NCBI GenBank assembly: GCA_009885845.1
Contig: VFJW01000080.1
Location: 1-63,524 of the forward strand
Direction of reading: 5' to 3'
Source of the DNA: Geobacter sp.
GTDB lineage: Bacteria > Desulfobacterota > Desulfuromonadia > Geobacterales > Pseudopelobacteraceae
Length of the DNA stretch: 63,524 nucleotides
In this document: positions 19,610-53,015 of the stretch, one piece after another
Layout: every line of letters starts with the position of its first letter
How positions within the stretch are numbered: position 1 is the stretch's first letter
Notes under the pieces: generated by a model
The model's database searches: none
What the model saw: only the letters and a program-made list of their open reading frames with translations
What the model was told of the DNA's origin: nothing
Program-made: the position numbers and the translations under genes

Positions 19610-20986
19610 TCAGTGACCCGCTCGCACGTTCTGGATCTCACTCAATACACGTTCACGAGCCGTACCGCCAGGAATATTCCGGGCATTGACACTGGCCTCA
19701 ACAGTTATGCACGCAAAGATATCCGTATCGATCCGGTCAGAAAACCGCTGCCACTCTACCAGTGAGAGCTCCGTAATATCCTTCTCATGTTCCACACAAT
19801 ACGCGACCGACTTACCGACTACTTCATGAGCATCACGGAAGGGGAGTCCCTTGCGCACCAGGTAATCAGCAACATCGGTTGCGGTAGAGAAACCCTGGCC
19901 GGCGGCATTGCGCATGCTTCCGGTATTGACACGCATCTCACGGATCATATCGGCAAATATTTTAAGACTCCCCTTGACCGTGTCAATCGTATCAAAGAGC
20001 GGCTCCTTGTCTTCCTGCATATCCTTGTTGTAGGCGAGCGGCAGAGCCTTCATGGTCGTCAGCAGAGCCATCAGATTCCCATAGACCCGCCCTGTTTTAC
20101 CCCGCACCAGTTCAGGCACATCCGGATTTTTCTTCTGCGGCATGATCGATGATCCGGTACAGAAGCCGTCAGATAATTCGATGAATCGAAACGCGCTGGT
20201 TGACCAGATAATCAGCTCTTCCGAAAAGCGGGACAGATGCATCATCAGAATTGAAGCGTCCGCAAGAAATTCCAGAGCAAAATCCCGGTCGGAAACAGCG
20301 TCCAGCGAGTTGCGGGTGATGGAGGGAAAATCGAGCTGTTCGGCAACATATTCACGATCGATCGGGAAGGTCGTCCCGGCAAGCGCGCCGGCACCCAGAG
20401 GGAGGACGTTGACCCGTTTCAGACAATCGTCAAGACGCCCCTTGTCACGTTTGAACATCTCGACATACGCCATCAGGTGGTGGGCGAACAGGATCGGCTG
20501 CGCAGTCTGCAGGTGGGTGAAACCGGGCATCAGCGTGTCCAGGTTTGCCTCCGCCTGGGTAAGCAGGGCATCGATCAGCAGGTCGAGATAGGTCGTAATA
20601 TCAACAATTTCATCCCGCAGGTACAGCCGGATATCCAGCGCCACCTGGTCGTTACGCGAACGCCCGGTGTGCAGGCGCTTGCCCGCTTCACCGATGGCCG
20701 CTGACAGGCGCGCTTCGATGTTCATATGGATGTCTTCAAGGGCAATGGAAAAATCAAACTGGCCGGCCTCGATCTGCTCCAGAATGGCATGCAGGCCATG
20801 AACGATCTGCTCGACGTCCTCCAGCGGAATGATCCCCTGCTTGCCGAGCATGCGGGCATGGGCGATAGAACCTCGAATATCCTGATGATACAGGCGCTTA
20901 TCAAATTGAATGGACGCGGTGAATTCCTCAACAAATTTATCGGTGGGCTGGGTGAAGCGACCGCCCCACAGTTTATCTTTGGACAT
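19610..20986 (-). CDS. argH: Argininosuccinate lyase
   Basis: Last enzyme of arginine synthesis, splitting argininosuccinate into arginine and fumarate (458 residues, normal length). Signatures: KLWGGRF at the N-terminus, [10 protein letters not shown], and the fumarase-superfamily motif [12 protein letters not shown] with its catalytic Ser loop. It is cut off from argG by the 10-kb accessory operon, but keeps its own promoter upstream. gspA, gspB and a lipoprotein follow closely. Confidence 0.98.
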
Positions 20987-21031
20987 GATGTATTGATTCC
21001 TTGTGCTATTTTTTGAAATTGCAGAGTGGGC

Positions 21032-21059
21032 ACTATACGCGAAAAACGGATAAAATCAA
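21032..21059 (-). promoter_or_regulatory. Predicted argH promoter overlapping the end of the accessory operon
   Basis: On the minus strand, TTGATT (21054-21059) and TATAGT (21032-21037) are 16 bases apart, about 45 bases upstream of the argH ATG. The -35 box overlaps the stop codon of the DUF1016 gene (21056-21058), so the accessory operon ends exactly where the native promoter begins. Confidence 0.55.
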
Positions 21060-22216
21060 AGAGTAGACGTATCCTTTCCAACTCCATATACAACTTCCTG
21101 CTCCCGCACCCAGTCAACCAGCTTCTGCTGGAGGACTTCCTTGGATGGCAGATAGAGATTGTACTCCCGCGCGTGGATATTGGCATCGGCAGGCAGCGTG
21201 AGTTCGACGATGGCCTGTTTCTTCCGTTTACAGAGCAGAATGCCGATGGTGGGGTTCTCATCAGGGGTCTTCACGTAACGATCGAAGTAGTTCACGTACA
21301 TCTGCATCTGCCCCAGATCCTGATGACTGAGCTTGTCGAGCTTCAGATCTATGATTACGTAGCAGCGGAGCAGACGGTTGTAGAAGACGAGATCGACAAA
21401 GAAATGGTCCTCGTCGAAGGTGAAGCGCTTCTGGCGGGCTTCAAAGAGGAACCCCTTGCCGAGTTCGAGCAGGAACTTCTCAAGCTGGTCGATAATTGCG
21501 GTTTCCATATCGGATTCAGAATAGCCAGCTTTATCGTCAAGACCGAGAAATTCGAGGATGTACGGCTCCTTGAGGATGTCCGCAACCGTAACGATGATTT
21601 GCCCCTTGGAGGCGAGCTTATGGACGCCTTCTTTGTCTTTGCTGAGTGCAAGACGTTCGTAAAGGCAAGAGGCCACTTGACGTTTCAGCTCACGGAAAGA
21701 CCAATTTGACTGGAATGCTTCGATTTCGTAGAAGCTGCGCTCTTCGGGGTTTTTGATGGTGAGAAGCAGGACATAATGTGACCAGCTTAGCGTAAACGGT
21801 GATTTCCCGGATTTCGCAGACAGTGTATGCGAAATTGTCTCACTTTGTAATTTGTCAGACACTGTCTGACAAATCTGTCGGGGCGCGAAAACATCGGACG
21901 GGAACTGACTAACCCGATCCCGATATTCAACGTAAAATTGTCGTATCAGCCTCAAGTTGGTCGGGGAAAACCCGACTCCGAACTCCTCTGATAGCCGTTT
22001 GGAAAGCTCCTTTAGCAACTCCTTCCCATATTCGGCCCGCTTCTCCCCCTTCTGTTCATATTCCACAATCCGCCGACCAATCTCGAAGTTGGTCATCACC
22101 TGCAGGGTGTTGACCGTAGTGGCAACGGCGTGGCGTGCGGAGTGGATGAGGCCACGAAGTTCGGTGATGAGCGGTGCGAGTTCATGGGTTGTGGTCGGGA
22201 CAGGCTTTTTCTTCAT
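21056..22216 (-). CDS. DUF1016/YhcG-like PD-(D/E)XK nuclease
   Basis: Protein of 386 residues with a helical N-terminal domain (about 10-190; NFEIGRRIVEYEQKG is typical of DUF1016_N) and a C-terminal nuclease-fold domain in which Asp275 (FFVDLVFYN) and Asp290-Leu-Lys292 (IIDLKLDKL) form a PD-(D/E)XK-type site. Family members such as E. coli YhcG occur alone or beside restriction genes. Here it starts two bases after the vsr stop, so it is the seventh gene of the operon. Whether it is functionally part of the system or a passenger cannot be told from sequence. Confidence 0.85.
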   Translation of the reverse strand: MKKKPVPTTTHELAPLITELRGLIHSARHAVATTVNTLQVMTNFEIGRRIVEYEQKGEKRAEYGKELLKELSKRLSEEFGVGFSPTNLRLIRQFYVEYRDRVSQFPSDVFAPRQICQTVSDKLQSETISHTLSAKSGKSPFTLSWSHYVLLLTIKNPEERSFYEIEAFQSNWSFRELKRQVASCLYERLALSKDKEGVHKLASKGQIIVTVADILKEPYILEFLGLDDKAGYSESDMETAIIDQLEKFLLELGKGFLFEARQKRFTFDEDHFFVDLVFYNRLLRCYVIIDLKLDKLSHQDLGQMQMYVNYFDRYVKTPDENPTIGILLCKRKKQAIVELTLPADANIHAREYNLYLPSKEVLQQKLVDWVREQEVVYGVGKDTSTL

Positions 22217-22218
22217 CG

Positions 22219-22632
22219 CTATAAAACCTCTCTGTTTAAGTCAAGCCGATTGGCCAATTGCCCCGGTTCCCGAAGTTCACACTCCCAGACTGTTATCACC
22301 CGCCAGCCCAACCGCTCCAGATCGGCCTTTACCAGCTGGTCGCGAACCATGTTGGATTCTAGCTTCTTCAGCCAGAAATCCGTCCTGCTTTTCGGTGTGT
22401 AGGCAAATCGGCAGCCCTTGTGCCGGTGCCAGAAACAGCCATGAACGAATATGACTGTTTTGTAACGAGGCAATACGATATCAGGTTTACCCGGCAGATC
22501 AGCTCGGTGGAGGCGGAATCGGAAACCCATGCGGTGCAGCAGAGAGCGTACAGCAAGCTCGGGCTTGGTGTTGCGGTTCTTAATTAGCGACATGACTTCT
22601 GATCGCTTGGACTTGGTGAAGACGTCTGTCAT
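22219..22632 (-). CDS. vsr: Very short patch repair (Vsr) endonuclease
   Basis: Vsr family nuclease (137 residues) that nicks beside T:G mismatches arising from deamination of 5-methylcytosine. Key residues fall at the same numbers as in E. coli Vsr: Asp51 (GKPDIVL), His64 and His69 (VHGCFWHRH); Cys66 and nearby His/Cys are available for structural zinc. Its ATG overlaps the AIPR stop by four bases (ATGA), indicating coupling. The methyltransferase of the same operon is the obvious partner; a role as a restriction nuclease is also possible. Confidence 0.95.
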   Translation of the reverse strand: MTDVFTKSKRSEVMSLIKNRNTKPELAVRSLLHRMGFRFRLHRADLPGKPDIVLPRYKTVIFVHGCFWHRHKGCRFAYTPKSRTDFWLKKLESNMVRDQLVKADLERLGWRVITVWECELREPGQLANRLDLNREVL

Positions 22633-24710
22633 TCAAAGAAACCCTCGGCTTCTGCCTTTGATTTGATTTCCAGAATCCATAGGCTTTGTTTGTCGGAAGG
22701 TATTTTGTTTGGAATACGAGCAGCTACATTAATCACACTTTCTTCATCAGGTGTCAAAACAGACTTGTCGGAATTCCATTCAAGCAATTTTTGCCAGTAT
22801 GAGGCTCCACAACTGAAAACGGTTCTCTGTGCTTCAATCCCATTGTCCGTTTTCTGAATTACTTTGGCTTCCTTTTCCGCCGATACAAGCTCGTCTTTAT
22901 CAATGAGTTCAGCCTTGAATTCAGGCAAAAGAATGATACCCAGGCTTTCAATCTTTTCCCAACACAGTTTTTTCTTACACCATTCGGTAACGTTTTCAAT
23001 CCCTCTGTCCGGGTCAACAATAACCGTAAATGCTGCTTCGGAAACCAAAGCTAGTTGGCGTTCAAGGGCAGTCGAGATACGTTGGCGGTTCCAGATTGTT
23101 TTGAAATCGAGTGATTTCCCGCGCTCTTTTGTCCCTATAATCATTGAAAGTTTGGCAATCGCATAAGCGACTATGTTTGCTCGGTATCCATTCTGGTACC
23201 AAGGTTGTTTTGAGACCAGCCGCTCTGTAGATTTCCAGATAATTGCCTTTGCAACAAGCCTGCGGAAGTACTCTTCATTGAAATCTGCATCAGATGTTTT
23301 CCAGAGTTCTTCAATCCACTCAGCAAATGCCCTGAAATTCTTCTGAGCACCGAGACTGACAATGTGTGGTAAACCACGCCAGGCATTTTCATATTTTGCA
23401 AGATCAGTCTTGATAATCAGTTGATCACGTGGGTTTTGAACAAGATATTTGTTTTTGTCGGATTTCGAAAGCTTGGCTTGCTCATTTAGATATTGCCCAC
23501 GTGCACGTTCATAAAACCAATGAGTGTTGTGTTGGGAACCTGCCACTGCCGGAGGTGCCCAAATGCGTCTTGAATGAGTTTCAATCCGAACATGGAACAG
23601 ATGATTCGAAAAAAAGTCAGCATCATTAACCTTGTTCTGACTGTTAGCATACCTCGATATATTTGGAATTACTTCATCTGCATGATCGGGCGTAACAACT
23701 GAAAGCTTCATTTGGACAAAGATGTTTCCAAGATCATTTTTTTCTTTACGCCGTGTGGTTGAAAGGGATGCGGTGGTCTGCCCTCCATTCACAATCTGGA
23801 GATCCTGAACCATTGTAATACAAAGCCCGTTCTCATTCTGAACCACTTCTGCAGAACTTGCCGTTGCTGCTATACCGTTATTGTATGCAAAAAACATTGC
23901 GGGTTTTGTAAGGATTGTAGTTTTGATACCCGTATTTACGCTCTTTGATCCTCGTGCGCCTAAAAATGCGCGAACATTTCGTTCAAGCAGCCTGCTACCG
24001 TATCTGTCATAAAGATCGGCCAACACTGTCCCTGGTATGACGCAGAGATAAGCCTTGTACTCTCCCGATGTCTGGCTTGCCTCAAGGCATGGTATTCCAA
24101 AAGAGGAAAAGTCGCGGAAATCTATAGCAAGTTCATCCCTTCCGGATTTTGATTCATACGCCCTGTGGAAACGTGCAATATCCCAGATGTGGAATTCAAC
24201 CGGAATCTGGTTCTGATAGTCTTCAGGCCAGTCCTTGATTCGGCTGCTCAGAACAGCATCCGTTACCAGAAACAACCTGAAACGCATTATTCCCAGCCTG
24301 TTCCTGTAAATATCGCCTGCAAGAGCATATACAGGTGAGCTTTCTTCAAGTTCAGGGTGAAGTTGACCGCTCATGGCTTCCGACACAAATGCACGCAACC
24401 TCGCAAAAAGCGATGTAGCATCAGTTTGCGTTAGTGTTTCGGCTTCAGCACCACCCCTGTAGTCAGCAATTATGAGCTTCATTGCCCCGTCTGCATCATC
24501 AAAGGAATATCCGTCAACTCTCAGTTTTAGTCTACGGTCACGTACTCCATTCCCTTCATGATAGCATGGTTCAAAATCAGGCAACTCCTCAGCATCCATC
24601 AAACGTTGGGATGCTATCGTGACAAAAGCAGCCTGAGTAAGGTCGCCTTCTGCCGCTGCATGAGATCGAACTGACTCGAGGTAGTCTTTTCTAAAGTCAT
24701 CAAGATCCAT
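22629..24710 (-). CDS. AIPR family protein
   Basis: Protein of 693 residues. The AIPR (abortive infection phage resistance) signature is clear near the middle: FFAYNNGIAATAS (Asn277-Asn278-Gly279) and, about 30 residues later, QIVNGGQTTAS. The N-terminal 120 residues carry acidic residues but no clear nuclease Lys. AIPR proteins are found in phage-resistance loci; their biochemical activity is not settled as far as I know. It begins 14 bases after the DUF4420 stop and overlaps vsr. The region is AT-richer than the flanking arg genes. Confidence 0.88.
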   Translation of the reverse strand: MDLDDFRKDYLESVRSHAAAEGDLTQAAFVTIASQRLMDAEELPDFEPCYHEGNGVRDRRLKLRVDGYSFDDADGAMKLIIADYRGGAEAETLTQTDATSLFARLRAFVSEAMSGQLHPELEESSPVYALAGDIYRNRLGIMRFRLFLVTDAVLSSRIKDWPEDYQNQIPVEFHIWDIARFHRAYESKSGRDELAIDFRDFSSFGIPCLEASQTSGEYKAYLCVIPGTVLADLYDRYGSRLLERNVRAFLGARGSKSVNTGIKTTILTKPAMFFAYNNGIAATASSAEVVQNENGLCITMVQDLQIVNGGQTTASLSTTRRKEKNDLGNIFVQMKLSVVTPDHADEVIPNISRYANSQNKVNDADFFSNHLFHVRIETHSRRIWAPPAVAGSQHNTHWFYERARGQYLNEQAKLSKSDKNKYLVQNPRDQLIIKTDLAKYENAWRGLPHIVSLGAQKNFRAFAEWIEELWKTSDADFNEEYFRRLVAKAIIWKSTERLVSKQPWYQNGYRANIVAYAIAKLSMIIGTKERGKSLDFKTIWNRQRISTALERQLALVSEAAFTVIVDPDRGIENVTEWCKKKLCWEKIESLGIILLPEFKAELIDKDELVSAEKEAKVIQKTDNGIEAQRTVFSCGASYWQKLLEWNSDKSVLTPDEESVINVAARIPNKIPSDKQSLWILEIKSKAEAEGFFE

Positions 24711-24724
24711 CTGAATTTGGCCCC

Positions 24725-25657
24725 CTAACTGACAATCTCAAAAGTCTGGCATGCCGATAAAACGACCTCATAAATAACACTCCCAATACCGCTTGGGAGG
24801 GAAGAACGAACTATTCTGGGGAATCCTTCAACAACAGCGAAGCGACGAAATTCACCAAGTTGATAAACATGGCTCCTATACTCTTCCCGATCCAAATATC
24901 CTGCAGAAAGTAATCGTTCCTCCAACAAGGCGTATGCTGCCGGTTCATTTTCAAACCGGACCCGTAAATCTGACACAATGTCAGGTAAACAAAACGAATC
25001 ATTTCCTGCTCGTTCGGAAGGATTCAAAGTTACCGTAACTAGCTGAAATGGGCATTGAACATCTTCAAGTTGCTCAGCTGAAGAAATTTTTATTTTTGTT
25101 GAATTGGGCCTTACGGACTTAATCTCATATACTGCATTCGGGTACCTGAAATCCTGTTCTGCATCCAGTGGCCCCACCCATCCCTCAAGAGCAGGTACAA
25201 CACCGTAAGCTGGAATGGCAAAGTGGATAAGAAACATCAACTCGCCTATTAGACCTCTGATGGAAGATTCATCCAGTAATCCATCGGCACTGCGCTCCAG
25301 AAGACGTTGCCATCGTGCAAAACGTTTTGTTGTCACCTCTGCAGCTTTGCTGTCGTTCAGTAACGTCCTGCCAAACTCAACAAGGTCTTCACAAAGATGA
25401 GAGAAAATCCGTCCCAATTCCGGACGAATCAACCGAAATATCAGAGCCCATCTTCCATCGTGTCTATGTCTACAAAAAACCTGAATTGCCTGTGTTTGTG
25501 ATGGGATATCAGTTTCGCCATCTGATACGAGAAGGAGTACACGTTCTCCCGAAGCATCCAGCCCGATATAGAAATCCAGAGGATGCTCTTCATCAACCCG
25601 AAGAAATCCCTTTCCGGGTTCCAGTGTCTCCCACCGTGACTCAAACATTATCATCAT
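24725..25657 (-). CDS. DUF4420 PD-(D/E)XK motif protein
   Basis: Protein of 310 residues matching the PD-(D/E)XK family DUF4420. Glu139 (RGLIGEL), Asp169 (EQDFRYP) and Glu178-Ile-Lys180 (VYEIKSV) provide the expected nuclease-type residues. It is probably the main DNA-cutting subunit of the operon. The start overlaps the Z1 gene by 17 bases; the first of three closely spaced ATGs has a GGAG at a good distance, but the ATG at 25648 cannot be excluded. Confidence 0.85.
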   Translation of the reverse strand: MMIMFESRWETLEPGKGFLRVDEEHPLDFYIGLDASGERVLLLVSDGETDIPSQTQAIQVFCRHRHDGRWALIFRLIRPELGRIFSHLCEDLVEFGRTLLNDSKAAEVTTKRFARWQRLLERSADGLLDESSIRGLIGELMFLIHFAIPAYGVVPALEGWVGPLDAEQDFRYPNAVYEIKSVRPNSTKIKISSAEQLEDVQCPFQLVTVTLNPSERAGNDSFCLPDIVSDLRVRFENEPAAYALLEERLLSAGYLDREEYRSHVYQLGEFRRFAVVEGFPRIVRSSLPSGIGSVIYEVVLSACQTFEIVS

Positions 25658-28322
25658 CAGACTCCATTACGTCATCTGCTTCCATCTGGAACATATTTCT
25701 CCACTCAACCAGATTAACTCGATATCTGACACGTCGTGCTATATCACTGTCATCAAATTCAGGAAAACTCAGACCAACAGCGACAAGTGGAATCCCTTCA
25801 GTATCATAGTCCACACCGTCTTCTACGGGTTTAACGAGATGAACAAGAAGCAGCGGTTTTGACCTTAATCTCCTATATTCCCAGTCGGGCACACTTTTAC
25901 CCTGCAGTCGATACTCCTCTTCCTTTGCACGAATTAGTTCTTCAGAGACTCCTTCCCTCTCAATACCTCTTGATCCAACGCGAGCTTTTGAACCAGAGAC
26001 AAGAATTGATCGCGAATCGCCCCTGATTTCAATCCTGCGTTTTTGTGGATGGTAATTAATACCAGCGAATACAGTTTCTGGTTCTCCTCCATTGGGAAGC
26101 ACAATATCCCAGCTTTGAAGCTTGGTTTCGTCCGTAGATTCTAAGAATGATGCAAGGTCATCTCTCTGGAAAGTCAGATTCAGAGGATGATTCTCGAATC
26201 GTCTCAAAAACGTGCATATCAATTTTAATGGGACATCCTTCCAAATGTTATTCCCAAAAATTGAACGTTGTTGTCGGATGCCTTGAGCACTCAAATCAGA
26301 AAAAAGGTGTTCCGTGGCCAATGCATTTGCACGAATATATTCCTGTGACTGATGTAATCTCGGCGTTTCAAGCCCTTGCCCGCTTACTGAAATTAACCTT
26401 TCGATTATCTGTGTTGCCCGCATTTTATTACGGGCGGTTACAATTAGCGAATCAGGATGCGCTCTAACCTTTAATCCGAAATCTTTTGGAGTCAGATTGA
26501 ATGCCTGCATCCTGCGGATTTCACTACGTAACTCCTCGCTAGCCAAAGCGATATGCCTGTACCAGTGGGTTGCTTCTTCCGAAAGCCATATCCTGCAAAG
26601 ATCTGAATAGCCATCACGATAACCAAACCAACGGCCCATCTGGAGGAGGGTGTCATACATCTGGGAGTTTCTGAAGAAGTAACTCGTTGAAAGCCCCTCA
26701 AGAGTTAACCCCCTTGACAAACTGTTACCTCCTACTGCAATAACACGCAGTCCGCTCTCACGATATAAGGAATAATCGAGACTTGCAGCGCCTGAACGCT
26801 GGTTAACCGACCTGACCTGTAATGGTAATGCAGCCCGAAGAAGGGCTTTTTGAACTTCAAACCAAGCAAATTCTGTTTCTGAAAATTCTGAGGTCCAAGT
26901 GTCCCTGATAGCTGCAATAGTTTTCGAGCGGCATGCCTCGGAAGGATCAAGCTGGCTGTAACTTCGAATCTCTCGATGGATTTCTCTCAACTCATGGTCA
27001 AGAAGACACGCCACTTGGTCTTGTACGTCAGTAAATCGACTTACATTTACAAGCATTGAGCGATGAGTATTACCCTCACCTCGAAGGTCACGAATTGCAT
27101 TGGATACTATAAACGACTTGAATGCAGAGAGAAGACTTTCTGGAAGTGCATCAACTGCAAGTGTTGGCCTGTGCCTTGACGGAAAAAAGTCATCAGCGTC
27201 CTCTATTTCTCTTAGACAGTCAATCATGACCTCATCACCAAAAATTGATTGAGCTCCAACATAATTTGTGGGTGCCTCAAGTGCATATATGAAGTGCTGC
27301 GGGAAAAGATCGTCACCAACCATGTCATTTTCAGAGTCAGGATCAATAAATATATTTGCGAAAGGTGTTGCTGTGAATCCGACATAACTTGATCTTGTAA
27401 ACAGACGGAGAAGGGCTCTGATTCTTTCATTGATGGCTGTCGGATCGTCATTGTTTGAGTTGGTGTTTACAGAGGCATTATCTGCCTCATCGTCTATAAG
27501 AAGCATCGGAGTATCAATTTTCCCATCATTGCCAGCATTGTATGAACGGAGCCAGTTTTCCAAGTTCTCAAGAATTTTCTTGTTTTTCTTGACCACGACC
27601 AGAACTGGTTCTGCAAATGCGTTAAGCCTGAATCCAAGCTGATTCATGAGATCGCTTCTGAAATCTTTTTTGGTAGATGTGAATACACCCGCCATCCTCG
27701 TACGGTTAAGCAAGCCGACACCGACTTCTCTTGTCGTACGTTGTTGGGAAAGCAGGCCGGAACTATCAAGCCCTACAAACCCAGCATCCAAGCGTTCCTG
27801 GGTCTGCCGCCTTAAACTTTCGAGTGTGCCAGTAAGAAGTATGATCAATCGGTAACCGGCATCTGCAGCCTTGCAGCAAAGTGCGGTGTATGTTGCTGTT
27901 TTACCGGACTGCACGTCTCCCATCACCAATCCTCTGCGAAACCAAGCAGTCGTTTTGGCTGGATCGCCCATTAGATCAAGTATCTCATCAGTAACTTTGT
28001 CCAAGGTATTGACCACTTTAGGAGGCCAACCATCCCGGTTAAGATACCCTGCATAACGATTCCAGTAATAAGGATCGATGTCTGGTTGACGTGCTGGAAG
28101 CCATGATTGATGGTCCGCTATAATTGCGGTGCCAGTATCCATATCAATCCTCAGGCGAGAATGTAGTCTGCGGAGCAACACATCAAGTTCTTGATCAGAA
28201 ACTGGGAACACGGCACGAAAGCCATGTACAAGCCTTAGAATATCTTCTTCTGTTGGCAATCGATCCATGTTCAGAGTGGCTACAACCGCATTTTCAATTT
28301 TCTGGGAGTTTTCAGTCGGCAC
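25641..28322 (-). CDS. Z1 domain SF2-type ATPase
   Basis: Large protein (893 residues). Walker A is GDVQSGKT (135-142); Walker B/motif II is LLIDDEAD (275-281). The segment reading SRGLTLEGLSTSYFFRNS and then LQMGRWFGYRDGY is the Z1 domain signature, a helicase-like C-terminal RecA fold found in restriction-type operons with MORC-like ATPases. Inferred role: ATP-driven motor or remodeller that couples recognition to cleavage. It overlaps the MORC-like gene by 11 bases and the DUF4420 gene by 17. Confidence 0.92.
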   Translation of the reverse strand: MPTENSQKIENAVVATLNMDRLPTEEDILRLVHGFRAVFPVSDQELDVLLRRLHSRLRIDMDTGTAIIADHQSWLPARQPDIDPYYWNRYAGYLNRDGWPPKVVNTLDKVTDEILDLMGDPAKTTAWFRRGLVMGDVQSGKTATYTALCCKAADAGYRLIILLTGTLESLRRQTQERLDAGFVGLDSSGLLSQQRTTREVGVGLLNRTRMAGVFTSTKKDFRSDLMNQLGFRLNAFAEPVLVVVKKNKKILENLENWLRSYNAGNDGKIDTPMLLIDDEADNASVNTNSNNDDPTAINERIRALLRLFTRSSYVGFTATPFANIFIDPDSENDMVGDDLFPQHFIYALEAPTNYVGAQSIFGDEVMIDCLREIEDADDFFPSRHRPTLAVDALPESLLSAFKSFIVSNAIRDLRGEGNTHRSMLVNVSRFTDVQDQVACLLDHELREIHREIRSYSQLDPSEACRSKTIAAIRDTWTSEFSETEFAWFEVQKALLRAALPLQVRSVNQRSGAASLDYSLYRESGLRVIAVGGNSLSRGLTLEGLSTSYFFRNSQMYDTLLQMGRWFGYRDGYSDLCRIWLSEEATHWYRHIALASEELRSEIRRMQAFNLTPKDFGLKVRAHPDSLIVTARNKMRATQIIERLISVSGQGLETPRLHQSQEYIRANALATEHLFSDLSAQGIRQQRSIFGNNIWKDVPLKLICTFLRRFENHPLNLTFQRDDLASFLESTDETKLQSWDIVLPNGGEPETVFAGINYHPQKRRIEIRGDSRSILVSGSKARVGSRGIEREGVSEELIRAKEEEYRLQGKSVPDWEYRRLRSKPLLLVHLVKPVEDGVDYDTEGIPLVAVGLSFPEFDDSDIARRVRYRVNLVEWRNMFQMEADDVMESDDDNV

Positions 28323-29784
28323 CTTTTAGCTCCTTGATTATTGATGCTGTAATGTCTGGATATTGGCAAAAGGGGTCGAGTGAAGCAAGACTACTCAGAA
28401 TGCGTTCTCTCCCACCATCAATACTTTCCGCAGTACTTAGCAGGCAAAGTGCCAAGTCCCTGAATTTTTCCATTAGGTTTTCATCTTCAAAATACCGGGG
28501 ACGATCTGAAGCCATGTCTGCATATAACGCATCTGACGGGAATGTACGCTCGACTGTATCTAATAAAAGTTCAAGCATTCTTCTGCCGCCGACATCGAGT
28601 TTTTCCATGAATGCACCAATAACAGGATGTTCACGGTTTACGACATAGCTGATTCCATCTCTTCCTTCTATACGGCTCCAAGAATGTATCAGCCGATCAC
28701 TTTTGGTAGCGCGCCCTCGGAATGTATAGACCCTGCGGCTGGTTCCAACAATTTTATCGACAATACGTCTGAGATTTTGTCTTACTTCATCTGGAGGGTG
28801 TGCAGCTGATTTTTTTATGTCGAGGGTCCAAAGGTGATCAAGTGTATTGGGGATGTCAACCTTGACACGTGCAAGTTTCGAAAGTTCTGCCTGTCTGGTT
28901 AGACGGAACCATGTTCCCCAGATAATGAGTCGGTGGTTTCGATAAATATAAAAACCCTGATTGCGACGAAGTCCCTCTTCACCCCCAGCTTGTCGTAACT
29001 CATCAGGGGAAAGCTTGCTAATGTGAGGGAGAATATATGGTTTTACGAGGACAGTATGATTTTCAATAATGATTGGTTCTTCCTGCAGAGGCTGTATGGC
29101 AGAATGCCAAGAAAGAAATGGATCAAATGGTGCTACCTGGTTCTCATTCAGACGAATTTCAATTTTGCTTAGACCGGGTTCTCCTGCAAGGTATCGGTGA
29201 AACACCAAGGCTAGATGCTCTCGCACTAGATCCATTTTTTCGGCAAGGGCTCGATGTAAATTGGGTTCACCAGCCACCAGCCTGTCAAGTTGCTCCCATA
29301 GGATTACAGTGCCACGTCCTTGTCGCAAAAGATCACTGACAAGTGGGTAGCGTTCAATTTCTTCTGCTTCAGGAACATATAGAATCCAGTTTTCACGCTC
29401 GGCTATCAAGTCGAGGTCCCAGCATCTGGCTGACAGTTCGCCATCTTTTAGGCTGATTACAGTCAGTTTTCGACACTGCGAAAGAGATGCGGTCTTAAGT
29501 CCTAATCCGAACCGGCCAAGATCATTTACAGCCCTAACATCCCATGGATTCCTGCTGCCATGACGCATGGCCTTTGTCAGTTCATCTGGCTTCATGCCAA
29601 AACCATCGTCAAGAATTGCAACATAAGGTGCTTCATGGGGAGAGTAACGAATGGATATCTTCTTAGCGCTTGCTGAAATGCTGTTATCGATGAGATCTGC
29701 GATTGCAGATTCAAGAGAGTAGCCAACCGAACGCATGGACTCGATCAAAGAAGGGGCATAAGGTGCGACAGTAAGTTCCGCCAT
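28312..29784 (-). CDS. MORC/MutL-like GHKL ATPase
   Basis: GHKL ATPase of 490 residues. Bergerat-fold boxes are visible: N box SAIADLIDNSISA (Asp30 to Asn34), G1 DDGFGM (59-64), G2 DLGRFGLGLKTAS (88-100). After this comes an S5-like transducer domain and a C-terminal region of about 200 residues I cannot assign. Prokaryotic MORC-like proteins of this kind are known from restriction-modification operons with Z1 proteins (Iyer, Abhiman and Aravind, 2008). It lies ten bases after the methyltransferase and overlaps Z1. Confidence 0.9.
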   Translation of the reverse strand: MAELTVAPYAPSLIESMRSVGYSLESAIADLIDNSISASAKKISIRYSPHEAPYVAILDDGFGMKPDELTKAMRHGSRNPWDVRAVNDLGRFGLGLKTASLSQCRKLTVISLKDGELSARCWDLDLIAERENWILYVPEAEEIERYPLVSDLLRQGRGTVILWEQLDRLVAGEPNLHRALAEKMDLVREHLALVFHRYLAGEPGLSKIEIRLNENQVAPFDPFLSWHSAIQPLQEEPIIIENHTVLVKPYILPHISKLSPDELRQAGGEEGLRRNQGFYIYRNHRLIIWGTWFRLTRQAELSKLARVKVDIPNTLDHLWTLDIKKSAAHPPDEVRQNLRRIVDKIVGTSRRVYTFRGRATKSDRLIHSWSRIEGRDGISYVVNREHPVIGAFMEKLDVGGRRMLELLLDTVERTFPSDALYADMASDRPRYFEDENLMEKFRDLALCLLSTAESIDGGRERILSSLASLDPFCQYPDITASIIKELKGAD

Positions 29785-29794
29785 CTTTAGTACC

Positions 29795-31438
29795 TTACCT
29801 CAATTGAATTGACAACCTGTGCCTTAATCCAGCCATTTGTGCCTCTGAAAAGTAAAACTCTTCCTCGCATAATTCTTTACCTTCAAATCTTCGCCAAGCT
29901 TCCGCTGCAACCGGCACCAACTCAACAGGCCATCCACTTAACTTGTAGTAACGTTTCAAAAATTCGGAAGGCATGTTTTCAAGCACATAATAATTTTCGA
30001 TATCGTCAGCCACCTCTCCGCGATCAAGAGCTCCATCGGGATGCAAGCCAGGATACAGAAACAGTATTGAAGCCCATCCTTTTATTAAATTTTCTTGTGT
30101 AAATCGGCGTAGCGACTTATTGTCTTGTCCCAGCAAAGGCTTGAGCCACTGCAGAGCTTCGTCACTGTTCTCAGGTATTATGTAAGAACCTGATTTGATA
30201 TCGATGTTTTTATCCATGATGACCTCCCTTTCAAGGTAATCGATGATCGAAAGCCCGACAGCCTCCGATATTAATGGCGGCACGGCATTGCCGATCATTC
30301 GAAATGAGTGAGTTCGTGCTTCTGGGAACCGGAACCAATCCGGAAAACTTTGAATTCTGGCCGCTTCGCGCGGTGTGAGTGAGCGGTTTTGGGTTGGATG
30401 GATAAACATCAAGCCGTCCTTGCTCAGGTGTGCGACAATTGTTGAACAGGCAGCAGATCGGCTCTGACGGGTATATCGATCCTTAAAGCTGGACTTGTCG
30501 TACGGAAACTCAAAATCAACGCCATTTCGCATCGCTACTGCTGAACTCTCACCTTCATTAATCAGAGCAAAATCTCGCAGATCCCGGTCGCTATGTGGGC
30601 GGGCAACATGGTTTGTCAGCTTTTTCGCAAGATCGATCTCCAGTACCTCAAACAGGTACTTGTATGCAGGATCACCATTATGCTCCAAGTGTTTAACCAT
30701 ACGATTGAAGTCATAATCGCACTCATCTTCTCCCTCCCCAGCTCTAAGCGGAGGAAGATCACCTATTGCAGCACCCAACAGAGTTCGTGGAAGCGCACGA
30801 GGCGAAGGCATCAGGTTAGGCGAAAAATAACCGGGGATATCCGCCCTGGTGCCAATAATAAGTTGCCGACGTCGCTTTTGCGGCACTCCCAGCTCCCAGG
30901 CATCTTCCACCTGTCCATGTACCCGGTAACCAAGAGCCCGAGCTTCCGACTGCACACGGGTAAAATATTCCCCACCCGCAGCGGTCTTAATCCCGAGAAC
31001 ATTTTCCATCACAAAGACTTTGGGTCTGAAGAAACCGACGTATTTCAAAAGCTCCAGATACAGGTGGCGTCGTGGGTCATCGTTGAGACGTTCACCATGA
31101 TTGGCCCCACCAACTTTTCGAGCGGTCGAAAACCCCTGACAGGGAGGTCCTCCCACTATGACATCAACATGATTGACACCAATCAGCTCCGATAACTCGT
31201 CAGGGCCAAAGGCTGTCAGATCGCGGTGCAGGATATGCTTAATATGTGAAAGATTGGCCTGAAGTGTGGCAACTGCCTCGACATTGAAATCAATCGCAGC
31301 CAGACATTTGAATCCGGCACGCTCCATTCCGAGCGTAAAGCCCCCGCAACCACAGAATAAATCTATGAAATTCAACGAATCAGCAGATTGGTTGTTGTCT
31401 GGCTTTGATATTATTTTGTTCGGCAGGAAACTACCCAT
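29795..31438 (-). CDS. DNA (cytosine-5) methyltransferase with C-terminal extension
   Basis: C5-methyltransferase (547 residues). Motif I is FIDLFCGCGGFTLG, motif IV has the catalytic Cys100 in GGPPCQGFS, motif VI is MENVLG, motif VIII QKRRR, and motif X is MIGNAVPP. The catalytic core ends near residue 400. The last 140 residues form an extra domain I do not recognise, and it has its own well-placed internal start (see findings). First gene of the seven-gene operon; GAGG lies upstream of the ATG. The target sequence cannot be predicted. Likely role: self-marking in a restriction-like system. Confidence 0.94.
   Translation of the reverse strand: MGSFLPNKIISKPDNNQSADSLNFIDLFCGCGGFTLGMERAGFKCLAAIDFNVEAVATLQANLSHIKHILHRDLTAFGPDELSELIGVNHVDVIVGGPPCQGFSTARKVGGANHGERLNDDPRRHLYLELLKYVGFFRPKVFVMENVLGIKTAAGGEYFTRVQSEARALGYRVHGQVEDAWELGVPQKRRRQLIIGTRADIPGYFSPNLMPSPRALPRTLLGAAIGDLPPLRAGEGEDECDYDFNRMVKHLEHNGDPAYKYLFEVLEIDLAKKLTNHVARPHSDRDLRDFALINEGESSAVAMRNGVDFEFPYDKSSFKDRYTRQSRSAACSTIVAHLSKDGLMFIHPTQNRSLTPREAARIQSFPDWFRFPEARTHSFRMIGNAVPPLISEAVGLSIIDYLEREVIMDKNIDIKSGSYIIPENSDEALQWLKPLLGQDNKSLRRFTQENLIKGWASILFLYPGLHPDGALDRGEVADDIENYYVLENMPSEFLKRYYKLSGWPVELVPVAAEAWRRFEGKELCEEEFYFSEAQMAGLRHRLSIQLR
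30215..30231 (-). promoter_or_regulatory. Internal Shine-Dalgarno and ATG inside the methyltransferase gene
   Basis: On the minus strand the sequence AAGGGAGGTCATCATG occurs in frame within the methyltransferase gene: a near-perfect ribosome site (30223-30230) five bases from the ATG of residue Met408 (30215-30217). It could direct separate production of the last 140 residues. Confidence 0.5.
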
Positions 31439-31538
31439 ACCAACCTCACAAGTACATTTATTTCAGAATACACTATTTGTATGTCAGATTACGTCGCAAG
31501 ACACCTTGGATGCCAAATTATTATTGAAGTTATCTCTC

Positions 31539-31579
31539 AAAAAAAGCCGCCCAACCGGCATACTCTCCGGTTAAGCGGC
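31539..31579 (-). terminator. Intrinsic terminator of argG
   Basis: Minus-strand hairpin (arms 31546-31558 and 31567-31579, one 2-base internal mismatch) followed by a run of seven T (31539-31545). It lies about 30 bases after the argG stop and 100 bases before the methyltransferase start, insulating the accessory operon from arg transcription. The 31439-31538 stretch must hold the accessory operon's own promoter; I see no strong consensus there. Confidence 0.8.
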
Positions 31580-31610
31580 CATTTTCATCGTCCGTTTATC
31601 ATTAGCTCTG

Positions 31611-32840
31611 TTACTTCTTCCGGTTGGCGTTCATCAGCGACCGGATACGCAATCTGAGTGAATTGATCTTGATGAAGCCTTCAGCATCAGCCTGGTTGAA
31701 TACCTGATCCTTCTCAAAGGTGGCAAAGTCGAGATTGAAGAGCGAATCGCTTTCAGATTTACGACCAACCGTACGGCAGAGTCCCTTGTACAGCTTGACT
31801 CGGGCCACGCCGTTAACGCACTTCTGGGAATCGTCGATCAGTACCTGCAGCATCTGCCGCTCGGGAGAGAACCAGTAACCGGCGTAGATCTGTTTGGCGT
31901 ATTCAGGGATAAGGCTGTCGCGGATACGCATGACTTCACGGTCCATGGTGATCTGCTCGACGGCGGAGTGGGCCTCGCGCAGGATCGTGCCGCCGGGGGT
32001 CTCGTAAACGCCGCGCGACTTCATGCCGACCGAGCGGTTTTCCAGCAGATCAACCCTGCCGACGCCGTGTACTCCGCCGATTTGATTCAGGTGCGCCAAC
32101 AGCTGAGCCGGTGTCATCGCTACGCCGTCAACAGATACGGCATTGCCGTTTCTGAACTCGATCTCGACATACTGCGCCTTGTTGGGTGCTTTTTCCGGCG
32201 GCCTCGTCAGCACATACATCTCTTCCGGCGCCTCTGCCCAAGTGTCTTCCAGGATGCCCCCCTCGAAGGAGATATGCAGCAGGTTGCGGTCAGAAGACCA
32301 GGGGCGCTTCTTGATGGTCGGCAACGGAATGCCATTCTTTTTTGCATAATCAATCAAGGCAATCCGACTGTTCAGATCCCACATCCTCCAGGGAGCGATG
32401 ACCTTGATAGCCGGATTGAAGTGGTAGTAGGCCAGTTCGAACCGGACCTGATCGTTCCCTTTGCCGGTCGCACCGTGGGAAACGGCATCGCACTTCTCCT
32501 TCGCGGCGATTTCCATCTGACGCTTGGCGATCAGCGGGCGGGCGATGGAGGTACCGAGCAGGTAGTGACCCTCGTAAATTGCGTTGGCACGGAACATCGG
32601 GAAAACAAAATCGCGTACGAACTCTTCTTTCAGATCGTCGATGTACACCTTGTCGGCACCGGTTGCCAGTGCTTTCTCTCGGACCGGATCCAGCTCCTCC
32701 CCCTGCCCCAGATCGGCGGAAAAAGCGACAACCTTGCAGCCGTATTCGTTTTTCAGCCATTTAAGGATAATTGAGGTGTCCAGACCACCTGAATAGGCCA
32801 GAACTATTTTTTTGATATCCTGTTTTTTGATTGGTGCCAT
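31611..32840 (-). CDS. argG: Argininosuccinate synthase
   Basis: ATP-dependent condensation of citrulline and aspartate (409 residues, normal). Signatures: PP-loop [15 protein letters not shown], the citrulline/aspartate-binding segment [18 protein letters not shown], and [19 protein letters not shown] lies upstream of the ATG. It follows argF by 27 bases and ends at a terminator, so it is the last gene of argB-argD-argF-argG; argH is 10 kb away. Confidence 0.98.
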
Positions 32841-49694: not shown

Positions 49695-49743
49695 TAGGTA
49701 CTATTGTGAGCACAATACCTAATTAATAGGTATAATGCCTATT
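49695..49743. promoter_or_regulatory. Two adjacent inverted repeats upstream of the winged-helix gene
   Basis: TATTGTG-AG-CACAATA (49702-49717) is a perfect 7-base palindrome with a 2-base centre. AATAGG-7-CCTATT (49725-49743) is a second palindrome whose spacer contains TATAAT; it overlaps the Fic stop codon. Additional TAGGTA half-sites flank them. They look like operator sites, perhaps for the small winged-helix protein encoded just downstream. Confidence 0.45.
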
Positions 49744-50783
49744 TATGTTTTCCGCCAGCGAGCCTCGGGGCCGCGTCCCAAGCATTCGAGGCGGTTCGCT
49801 TCCCGCTCCTGGCGTAAGATACGGCGGATCAAGTCAATTCCAACCGATGGACAGCGCTTCTGGATATCCTTGATGGAAAAATCGCCATGCACGCTCCTGA
49901 TTGCTTCAAGCACGGTGGCGGTTTTTGCGCCCTTTTCAGAGGAAATATCCCCCACTCTGCTTTCGAATTCCCGATATGCGGTCTTAAGGATGAACAGCAG
50001 ATAATTCACGTAATGCCACGGATCGTGTTTCCCTTCGTGCCATCCTTGGGAACTCAGCTCCAGAGTTTCGTAATAGCGTTCCTTGTTTTCCTCGATGAGC
50101 CGTTCGAGACTGATGTAGCGTCCGACCTCATAGCCCAGGTGGTAGCACTGTAACAGAAGGAGCAGCCGGGAGACCCTGCCGTTGCCGTCGCGGAAAGGAT
50201 GGATACAGAGGAAATCCAGATTGAATGCGGCCAGGGCGATCAGCGGATGAGCCCAGCGCTCCCGCATGCAGTTATTCCACATCTCCAGAAGTTCCGCCTG
50301 ATAAGCTGGAGTTTTTGCTGCCTCAACCGTAATGAAGCGTATCCGTTCCTTGCCGTCCGGATACCGCTCGATAATATCGCCATCCTTCTCCTTGAATTTT
50401 CCGGCATCCCATATATCACCCCGTGTGAGACGATGGAACTCAAGAATTGTCTGTTCGGAAAGGGGGAGAGCGGCCCCTTCGGCATGGATGAGGTCGAGCG
50501 CCTGCCGGTAGCCGCGGACCTCTTCCTCATTGCGGTCATGAAGCAGTTCTTTCCCCAGGAGTACCGCCTTGATGCGACGCTGATCGACGGTAACCCCTTC
50601 GATGCGGTTGGATGAAACGGCGCTTTCTATCAGGGCATGTTCCCGCAGGATTTTCAACTTCTGCGGCGCCTGCCGTGTGTAGAGTTCCTGTCGCCCCCGC
50701 GCCTCGCCCAGATCGGCCAGATACCAGGAGGTACTGGCAGGGATTGTTTCGAGCTTGTTGGCAAACTGTTTGAAGGTCATCAT
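49743..50783 (-). CDS. Fic domain protein (class II)
   Basis: Fic-family protein (346 residues), likely an AMP-transferase. The active-site motif HPFRDGNGR is at 195-203 and the N-terminal inhibitory motif S-x3-E-G at Ser58 to Glu62-Gly63 (SNRIEG), as in autoinhibited class II enzymes. A winged-helix-like C-terminus follows (about 280-346). It lies in the accessory block between larB and larC, between a small regulator and a DUF4020-like gene; there is no separate antitoxin. Confidence 0.9.
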   Translation of the reverse strand: MMTFKQFANKLETIPASTSWYLADLGEARGRQELYTRQAPQKLKILREHALIESAVSSNRIEGVTVDQRRIKAVLLGKELLHDRNEEEVRGYRQALDLIHAEGAALPLSEQTILEFHRLTRGDIWDAGKFKEKDGDIIERYPDGKERIRFITVEAAKTPAYQAELLEMWNNCMRERWAHPLIALAAFNLDFLCIHPFRDGNGRVSRLLLLLQCYHLGYEVGRYISLERLIEENKERYYETLELSSQGWHEGKHDPWHYVNYLLFILKTAYREFESRVGDISSEKGAKTATVLEAIRSVHGDFSIKDIQKRCPSVGIDLIRRILRQEREANRLECLGRGPEARWRKT

Positions 50784-50915: not shown

Positions 50916-53015
50916 CTACCCAAACCTTGCAATAGTCTCCTCAAACTTTTGGCGGAGCGCAGGTTCAAGCCTTTCAAAATCTATTTTCTCAATTAACTCC
51001 TTCAAGCCATGCCAAATATATCCGGGAGAACCAGACGATCCAAGGTATATCAAAACCTGCACAATCTCAGAAGGATATTGTTGCGGCACATCGCTTGTTC
51101 TGAGTTCATGTATAAATGAAAAATGCTTCAACGGGACTCGCGGCATCCTTACAATCAGACTTACCACTTCAGGTAGCACAGTTACTAGATATGACAACCA
51201 CCCGATCATGGCCTCGATTTCACCGGCAACCAATGCAACCGGCACACCCTGTAAACGATTTTCCCAATATGTTTTCAGCCAGCGCCGCCACAGTTCTTCC
51301 TGCTGTCTCTCGTCCATCCTTCGAAGCTGGCTCTTTATGAAAGATGCCAGTTGTTTTCTATCTTCTGTGCCAATATTTTTGAAGATGGCAGGAATCCAAA
51401 CGTTGAGTGGATCAGCTGCAAAAAGCACCAAGAAGGCTGCCGCAAACTCAATTATTCGCGCTTTTCGGTGATTGAAGACATTCTGCAGTTTCGGCAGTGT
51501 AGCAAGAAACGCCGACTCCAATAATTCTGCGATTTCTGGATTAAGGCGTCCCCCCACCAGGAATGCTTCCCAAGCTGTCAGATAATCAGAATTAACGTCA
51601 TCAGTAGTAAAGAGTGGCAGTAGATAAGTGCGCGTCCATTCGTTGTCGGCAGCAAGCATGAATGCAAATTGACTGGCAACAACCGACCGGCCGAGCCTGC
51701 CAACAATAGAGTCATCTTTGACAATGTCGGTGAGTATATCGTGGAATTCCTCGTTAAGTTTTGCTGGTCTCGGGTCATGTTGCATCCGCCACAGAGAAAG
51801 GCTATTCAACCTAAATTGGGTCAATATCCCGGCTGGATGATTGATTGCTAGATGATGCCAGTCGTTGCGTTTTTCTATTGGCTCGGCACGATCAATTCGC
51901 AGCCACAGAGCAGAGGCAATATCATTTGCTTCGGCGAGCAGTTGAAATGCATAGGGTTTTCCTACATCCCTTACTAACGAATAAAGCGTGTCAGCTATGG
52001 GCCGTACATGATAGTTGTGCAGTTCAGCATGGCCGAGCCATGCCAGGACTTCACGATACTGTGCCTCATCGAGCCCCATCTCCGCCCACGCTCGAAGCAA
52101 ACAAGGCCACAGGTCACTATTCCAGTGTCCTCCTGCTGATAATCCGCCCGCAAGATCCATACCCCAGGTGAAGTCTTTCTTGGATGCCTCTGCGACAGTA
52201 CCAAGCATTCCATGCCTGTCCGGTCCACGAAACTCTTCACCCTGATATGTCAGCAATTCAGGGAGCCAATCCGCAGCTGATTTCGACAAGAGATCTTCAA
52301 CACTCCATGGACTCTGCGGACCAACCCAGCCATCACCCGTCCAAGATCTCAAATCGGAGTGTTCACTTGGCTTGAATTCGGGATACTTTGACAGAACATT
52401 TTCGAGCGCTTTACTCGCCTGTTCACATTTCGGGTCAGCATCATGGAGCCAGTCAAGCCAGTAAAAATGATTACGCGCGGTACGACGCTCAGAGTCTTCG
52501 TCTTCTTCATCTGACCAACTATAGGCAAGTACTGAGTCGATGACTTTTGTGCGTGTGTCCGTGCTGGCCTCTGAATATGAGAGCGCAACCAAACGATAAA
52601 TTTCATGATGGGCAGCAATATCATGAGTGCCAATATGCTCAAGCAACCAGTTAAGTTTAGTATCTGCGGCAAGGTCAATGCGGACAGTTGTTGTATGAAC
52701 CGCCAGACGCCTCAAAAGGGGAACATCAGACTTGGCAAGACGAGCGCACCATCCCTCCACCATTTGGGGCTTGTTGCAAGCCAGCCACTCGAGACAATCA
52801 CGAGTGGCATCAATGAGCACATCAACAACTTCCAGATATTTGTCTTGGTCGTGAGGCTCGATTGCTGAACGATGCCAACTGGCGTCATCTCCCTCGCGTG
52901 AGCATTTCTGCCAAGCACGCAGAGTTAAGTATTTTTCTTCCAAACGACGCACCGTTTGCACCAATAACGGTTCTGCCACCGCATCAAGATTCGATTTGAG
53001 CCCTTTATCCAACAA
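50916..53015 (-). CDS. DUF4020-like protein lacking a usual N-terminus
   Basis: Large, mostly helical protein (699 residues) that resembles the DUF4020 domain; for example the segment around WRRWLKTYWENRLQGVPVAL, followed by EIEAMIGWLSYL and PEVVSLIVRMP. In many genomes DUF4020 is the C-terminal part of SIR2-type defence proteins of 1,100 or more residues. Here no SIR2 domain is visible. The frame begins with a TTG directly after an in-frame stop, with no good ribosome site. Probably a truncated remnant or a solo domain. The DUF4020 match is from memory of family patterns. Confidence 0.6.
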   Translation of the reverse strand: MLDKGLKSNLDAVAEPLLVQTVRRLEEKYLTLRAWQKCSREGDDASWHRSAIEPHDQDKYLEVVDVLIDATRDCLEWLACNKPQMVEGWCARLAKSDVPLLRRLAVHTTTVRIDLAADTKLNWLLEHIGTHDIAAHHEIYRLVALSYSEASTDTRTKVIDSVLAYSWSDEEDEDSERRTARNHFYWLDWLHDADPKCEQASKALENVLSKYPEFKPSEHSDLRSWTGDGWVGPQSPWSVEDLLSKSAADWLPELLTYQGEEFRGPDRHGMLGTVAEASKKDFTWGMDLAGGLSAGGHWNSDLWPCLLRAWAEMGLDEAQYREVLAWLGHAELHNYHVRPIADTLYSLVRDVGKPYAFQLLAEANDIASALWLRIDRAEPIEKRNDWHHLAINHPAGILTQFRLNSLSLWRMQHDPRPAKLNEEFHDILTDIVKDDSIVGRLGRSVVASQFAFMLAADNEWTRTYLLPLFTTDDVNSDYLTAWEAFLVGGRLNPEIAELLESAFLATLPKLQNVFNHRKARIIEFAAAFLVLFAADPLNVWIPAIFKNIGTEDRKQLASFIKSQLRRMDERQQEELWRRWLKTYWENRLQGVPVALVAGEIEAMIGWLSYLVTVLPEVVSLIVRMPRVPLKHFSFIHELRTSDVPQQYPSEIVQVLIYLGSSGSPGYIWHGLKELIEKIDFERLEPALRQKFEETIARFG

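Follow-up and report, generated by a model that had tools for sequence, protein, structure and literature searches.

A putative horizontally acquired MORC operon, predicted to cut invading DNA, between argG and argH of Geobacter sp.

Identification of the operon

The 63,524-nucleotide stretch of Geobacter sp. DNA analysed here (the window: contig VFJW01000080.1 of assembly GCA_009885845.1, a draft in 179 contigs) carries between argG and argH a six-gene operon that was acquired horizontally. The operon encodes a C5 cytosine DNA methyltransferase (MTase), a MORC-type GHKL ATPase, a superfamily 2 (SF2) helicase, a DUF4420 nuclease, an AIPR protein and a Vsr-type endonuclease; it is of a kind already described and is predicted to cut invading DNA. 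The adjoining DUF1016/YhcG gene, which a preliminary description had counted as the seventh gene, is an unrelated neighbour outside the system. Comparison with related loci further indicates that the methylase is often swapped between relatives independently of the remaining operon genes. Operons of this kind, with a predicted role in defence, occur in distant bacteria.

All of the window genes and sites given below with coordinates are on the minus strand, except that no strand is assigned to the inserted segment. The MTase gene (29795-31438; 547 amino acids (aa); Pfam DNA_methylase, 1.9e-61 over residues 23-398) is the first of the operon, 10 bases from the gene for the MORC-type ATPase (28312-29784; 490 aa; HATPase_c_3, 2e-33). 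The latter protein is MzaB-like (PADLOC, 1.4e-82), gave weak matches in the PDB to MutL (7.6e-5) and human MORC2 (0.0031), and contains the residues GFYIYRNHRLI, which by eye match the S5-domain MORC motif of Iyer et al., GhXhhpXXRhl. The SF2 helicase, encoded between the MORC and DUF4420 genes (25641-28322), carries DTLLQMGRWFG, fitting the motif DThhQXuRhFG. In the MzaD-like DUF4420 protein (24725-25657; 310 aa; Pfam, 3.1e-63), a PD-(D/E)XK nuclease, residues E139, D169 and E178-x-K180 are invariant among 26 sequences and correspond to the E-D-ExK of restriction endonuclease (RE)-fold nucleases. The MzaE-like AIPR protein (22629-24710; 693 aa; AIPR, 5.7e-97; AIPR_N, 3.7e-43) had no confident match in a PDB comparison; its AlphaFold model has a predicted local distance difference test score of 85 and a predicted template modelling score of 0.51. 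The AIPR stop overlaps the Vsr gene (22219-22632; 137 aa; Pfam Vsr, 2.6e-33; NCBIfam vsr, 156.8 bits against a cut-off of 97.85) by 4 bases. The observation made in the preliminary description is confirmed in part, and its interpretation has partial support; DUF1016 is not a member of the system.

Insertion at the argG-argH site

Following blastn comparison with loci L106 and L095, both of which lack the six genes, homology was found to end at position 31612, at the end of argG, and to restart at 22230, delimiting an inserted segment of 22230-31611. The DUF1016/YhcG gene (21056-22216) is a resident of the argG-argH site. It is on the same strand as the Vsr gene and separated from it by 2 bases, so co-transcription of the two is likely; even so, the earlier proposal that all seven genes form one coupled system is largely refuted, and we give it almost no credence. 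A terminator-like hairpin follows argG (31545-31580), and an argH promoter-like site lies beyond the operon (21032-21059); of 28 loci from the same genus, 10 match this site strictly. Besides discarding a false seventh gene, the analysis identifies argG-argH as a variable gene site in the genus. The gap ranges from 11 bases to 14.9 kb (window 19610-32840 and loci L091-L110) and contains, depending on the species, ParDE, AbiEii-type, NUDIX, TamB, DUF7149 or DUF1016 genes or the present operon. In genome G245 (L118; G245:C206, 2639-3680), argG has beside it a DUF1016 gene shortened to 216 aa and a Vsr fragment of 55 aa, perhaps left over from a similar insertion.

Comparison with known systems

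Iyer, Abhiman and Aravind (2008; PMC2292703) described a third type of MORC operon with MORC, SF2 helicase and RE-fold nuclease genes and often cytosine methylases and Vsr, and a figure legend in that paper gives AIPR as common in restriction-modification operons. The window operon shares the MORC motif, the DThhQXuRhFG helicase, the E-D-ExK nuclease, the methylase and Vsr, and its gene content does not differ substantially from that type in the portions of the paper available; those portions do not mention that the methylase can be swapped relative to the core.

The MzaB, MzaC, MzaD and MzaE families of mzaABCDE (Gao et al. 2020) match the window genes in the order B-C-D-E, but all four proteins fall far below the NCBIfam equivalog cut-offs (357.9 of 850, 548.8 of 1500, 109.8 of 420 and 360.1 of 1050 bits, respectively). 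In the available account of mzaABCDE, the sigma factor MzaA precedes mzaB, while in the window the MTase gene and then argG lie upstream of the MORC gene; the window operon also differs in having the MTase first and Vsr after the core. A sigma-70 gene is found upstream of the MORC gene in L050 and L051. The type II form of the putative system of Miller 2022 has an additional AIPR gene and an associated MORC gene, both of which the window operon shares; the accessible text mentions a putative transcriptional regulator, which was not seen in the window operon, and does not mention Vsr, which the window operon has. The ATP-dependent restriction system CglI/NgoAVII, as presented in the sections available (PMC4267653), has three genes and a nuclease in which PLD is fused to a B3 DNA-recognition domain, with no MORC, AIPR or Vsr, whereas a Pfam search of the seven window proteins found no PLD or B3 family.

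A probable mosaic methylase gene

The catalytic body of the MTase (about residues 21-395) shows the motifs GGPPCQGFS, MENV, QKRRR and GNAVPP in alignment. It is followed by a 150-aa C-terminal extension (29798-30265) with no Pfam match and with the conserved motifs LYxGLHPDG and SGWPV, found in 5 of 277 genomes of the class and always within an open frame of methylase size. The window and L030 MTases are 97% identical in aa and 92% in nucleotides (nt) over codons 1-392, in a match that starts upstream of the gene at 31495, and only 46% (aa) and 58% (nt) identical over codons 400-547. Between the L030 MTase and the solitary one of genome G244 (L116), identity is 80% (aa) and 78% (nt) over the first of these regions and 72% (aa) and 71% (nt) over the second. 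Because the closer pair has the lower tail identity, one of the two genes, window or L030, is probably recombinant near codon 393, and in this single pair the window gene is the more likely recombinant, with a probable breakpoint at about codons 383-400 (30240-30292). A uniformly fast-evolving tail was rejected, as the closer pair would not then show the lower tail identity.

Relationship of the methylase to the core

Similar cores occur with methylases that differ in their target-recognition regions. One alternative is that the MTase is an independent cassette: the nearest locus agrees between core and MTase in only 0-1 of 18 cases outside a clostridial trio, the solitary MTase of G244 bears the same extension as that of the window, and gene A of MZA is a sigma factor in the available description. 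However, a C5 MTase lies inside the fetched stretch in 29 of 31 full-core loci, the MTase-core residual correlation is 0.37-0.52, and the window MTase heads the same operon as the core; we regard an independent cassette as unlikely, though it is the alternative to be taken most seriously. In a repair pair of the dcm-vsr type, the histories of the MTase and Vsr would be linked. The MTase-Vsr correlation (rho 0.67) is not above the best Vsr-core value (0.50-0.70), and the nearest locus agrees between MTase and Vsr in 8 of 21 cases, against 4-6 with the core.

It appears improbable that the operon is a restriction-modification system of the conventional sort, with one fixed sequence recognised both by the MTase and by DUF4420 (or the core); a fixed target (MTase GCSGC) is given for CglI/NgoAVII in the sections available (PMC4267653). 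That the locus is decayed or regulatory, without a defence function, is very improbable. With moderate confidence, we favour a predicted defence operon whose methylase is exchanged. As similar cores pair with methylases whose target-recognition regions differ, this pattern makes discrimination between self and foreign DNA testable: the core would either follow the methylase or ignore it. In eukaryotes, MORC proteins regulate chromatin, so a bacterial MORC acting beside a DNA methylase could offer a handle on the ancestral role of the family.

Other defence-like genes in the window

At 50916-53015, a 699-aa protein matches Pfam DUF4020 and only the C-terminal half of the profiles of the defence protein Dsr1 (best 560-1220 of 1248). 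It lacks the N-terminal part of these profiles; a Dsr1-like gene may have been shortened or split here. Directly downstream (49743-50783), a SoFic-like protein is encoded (PADLOC, 3.6e-32).
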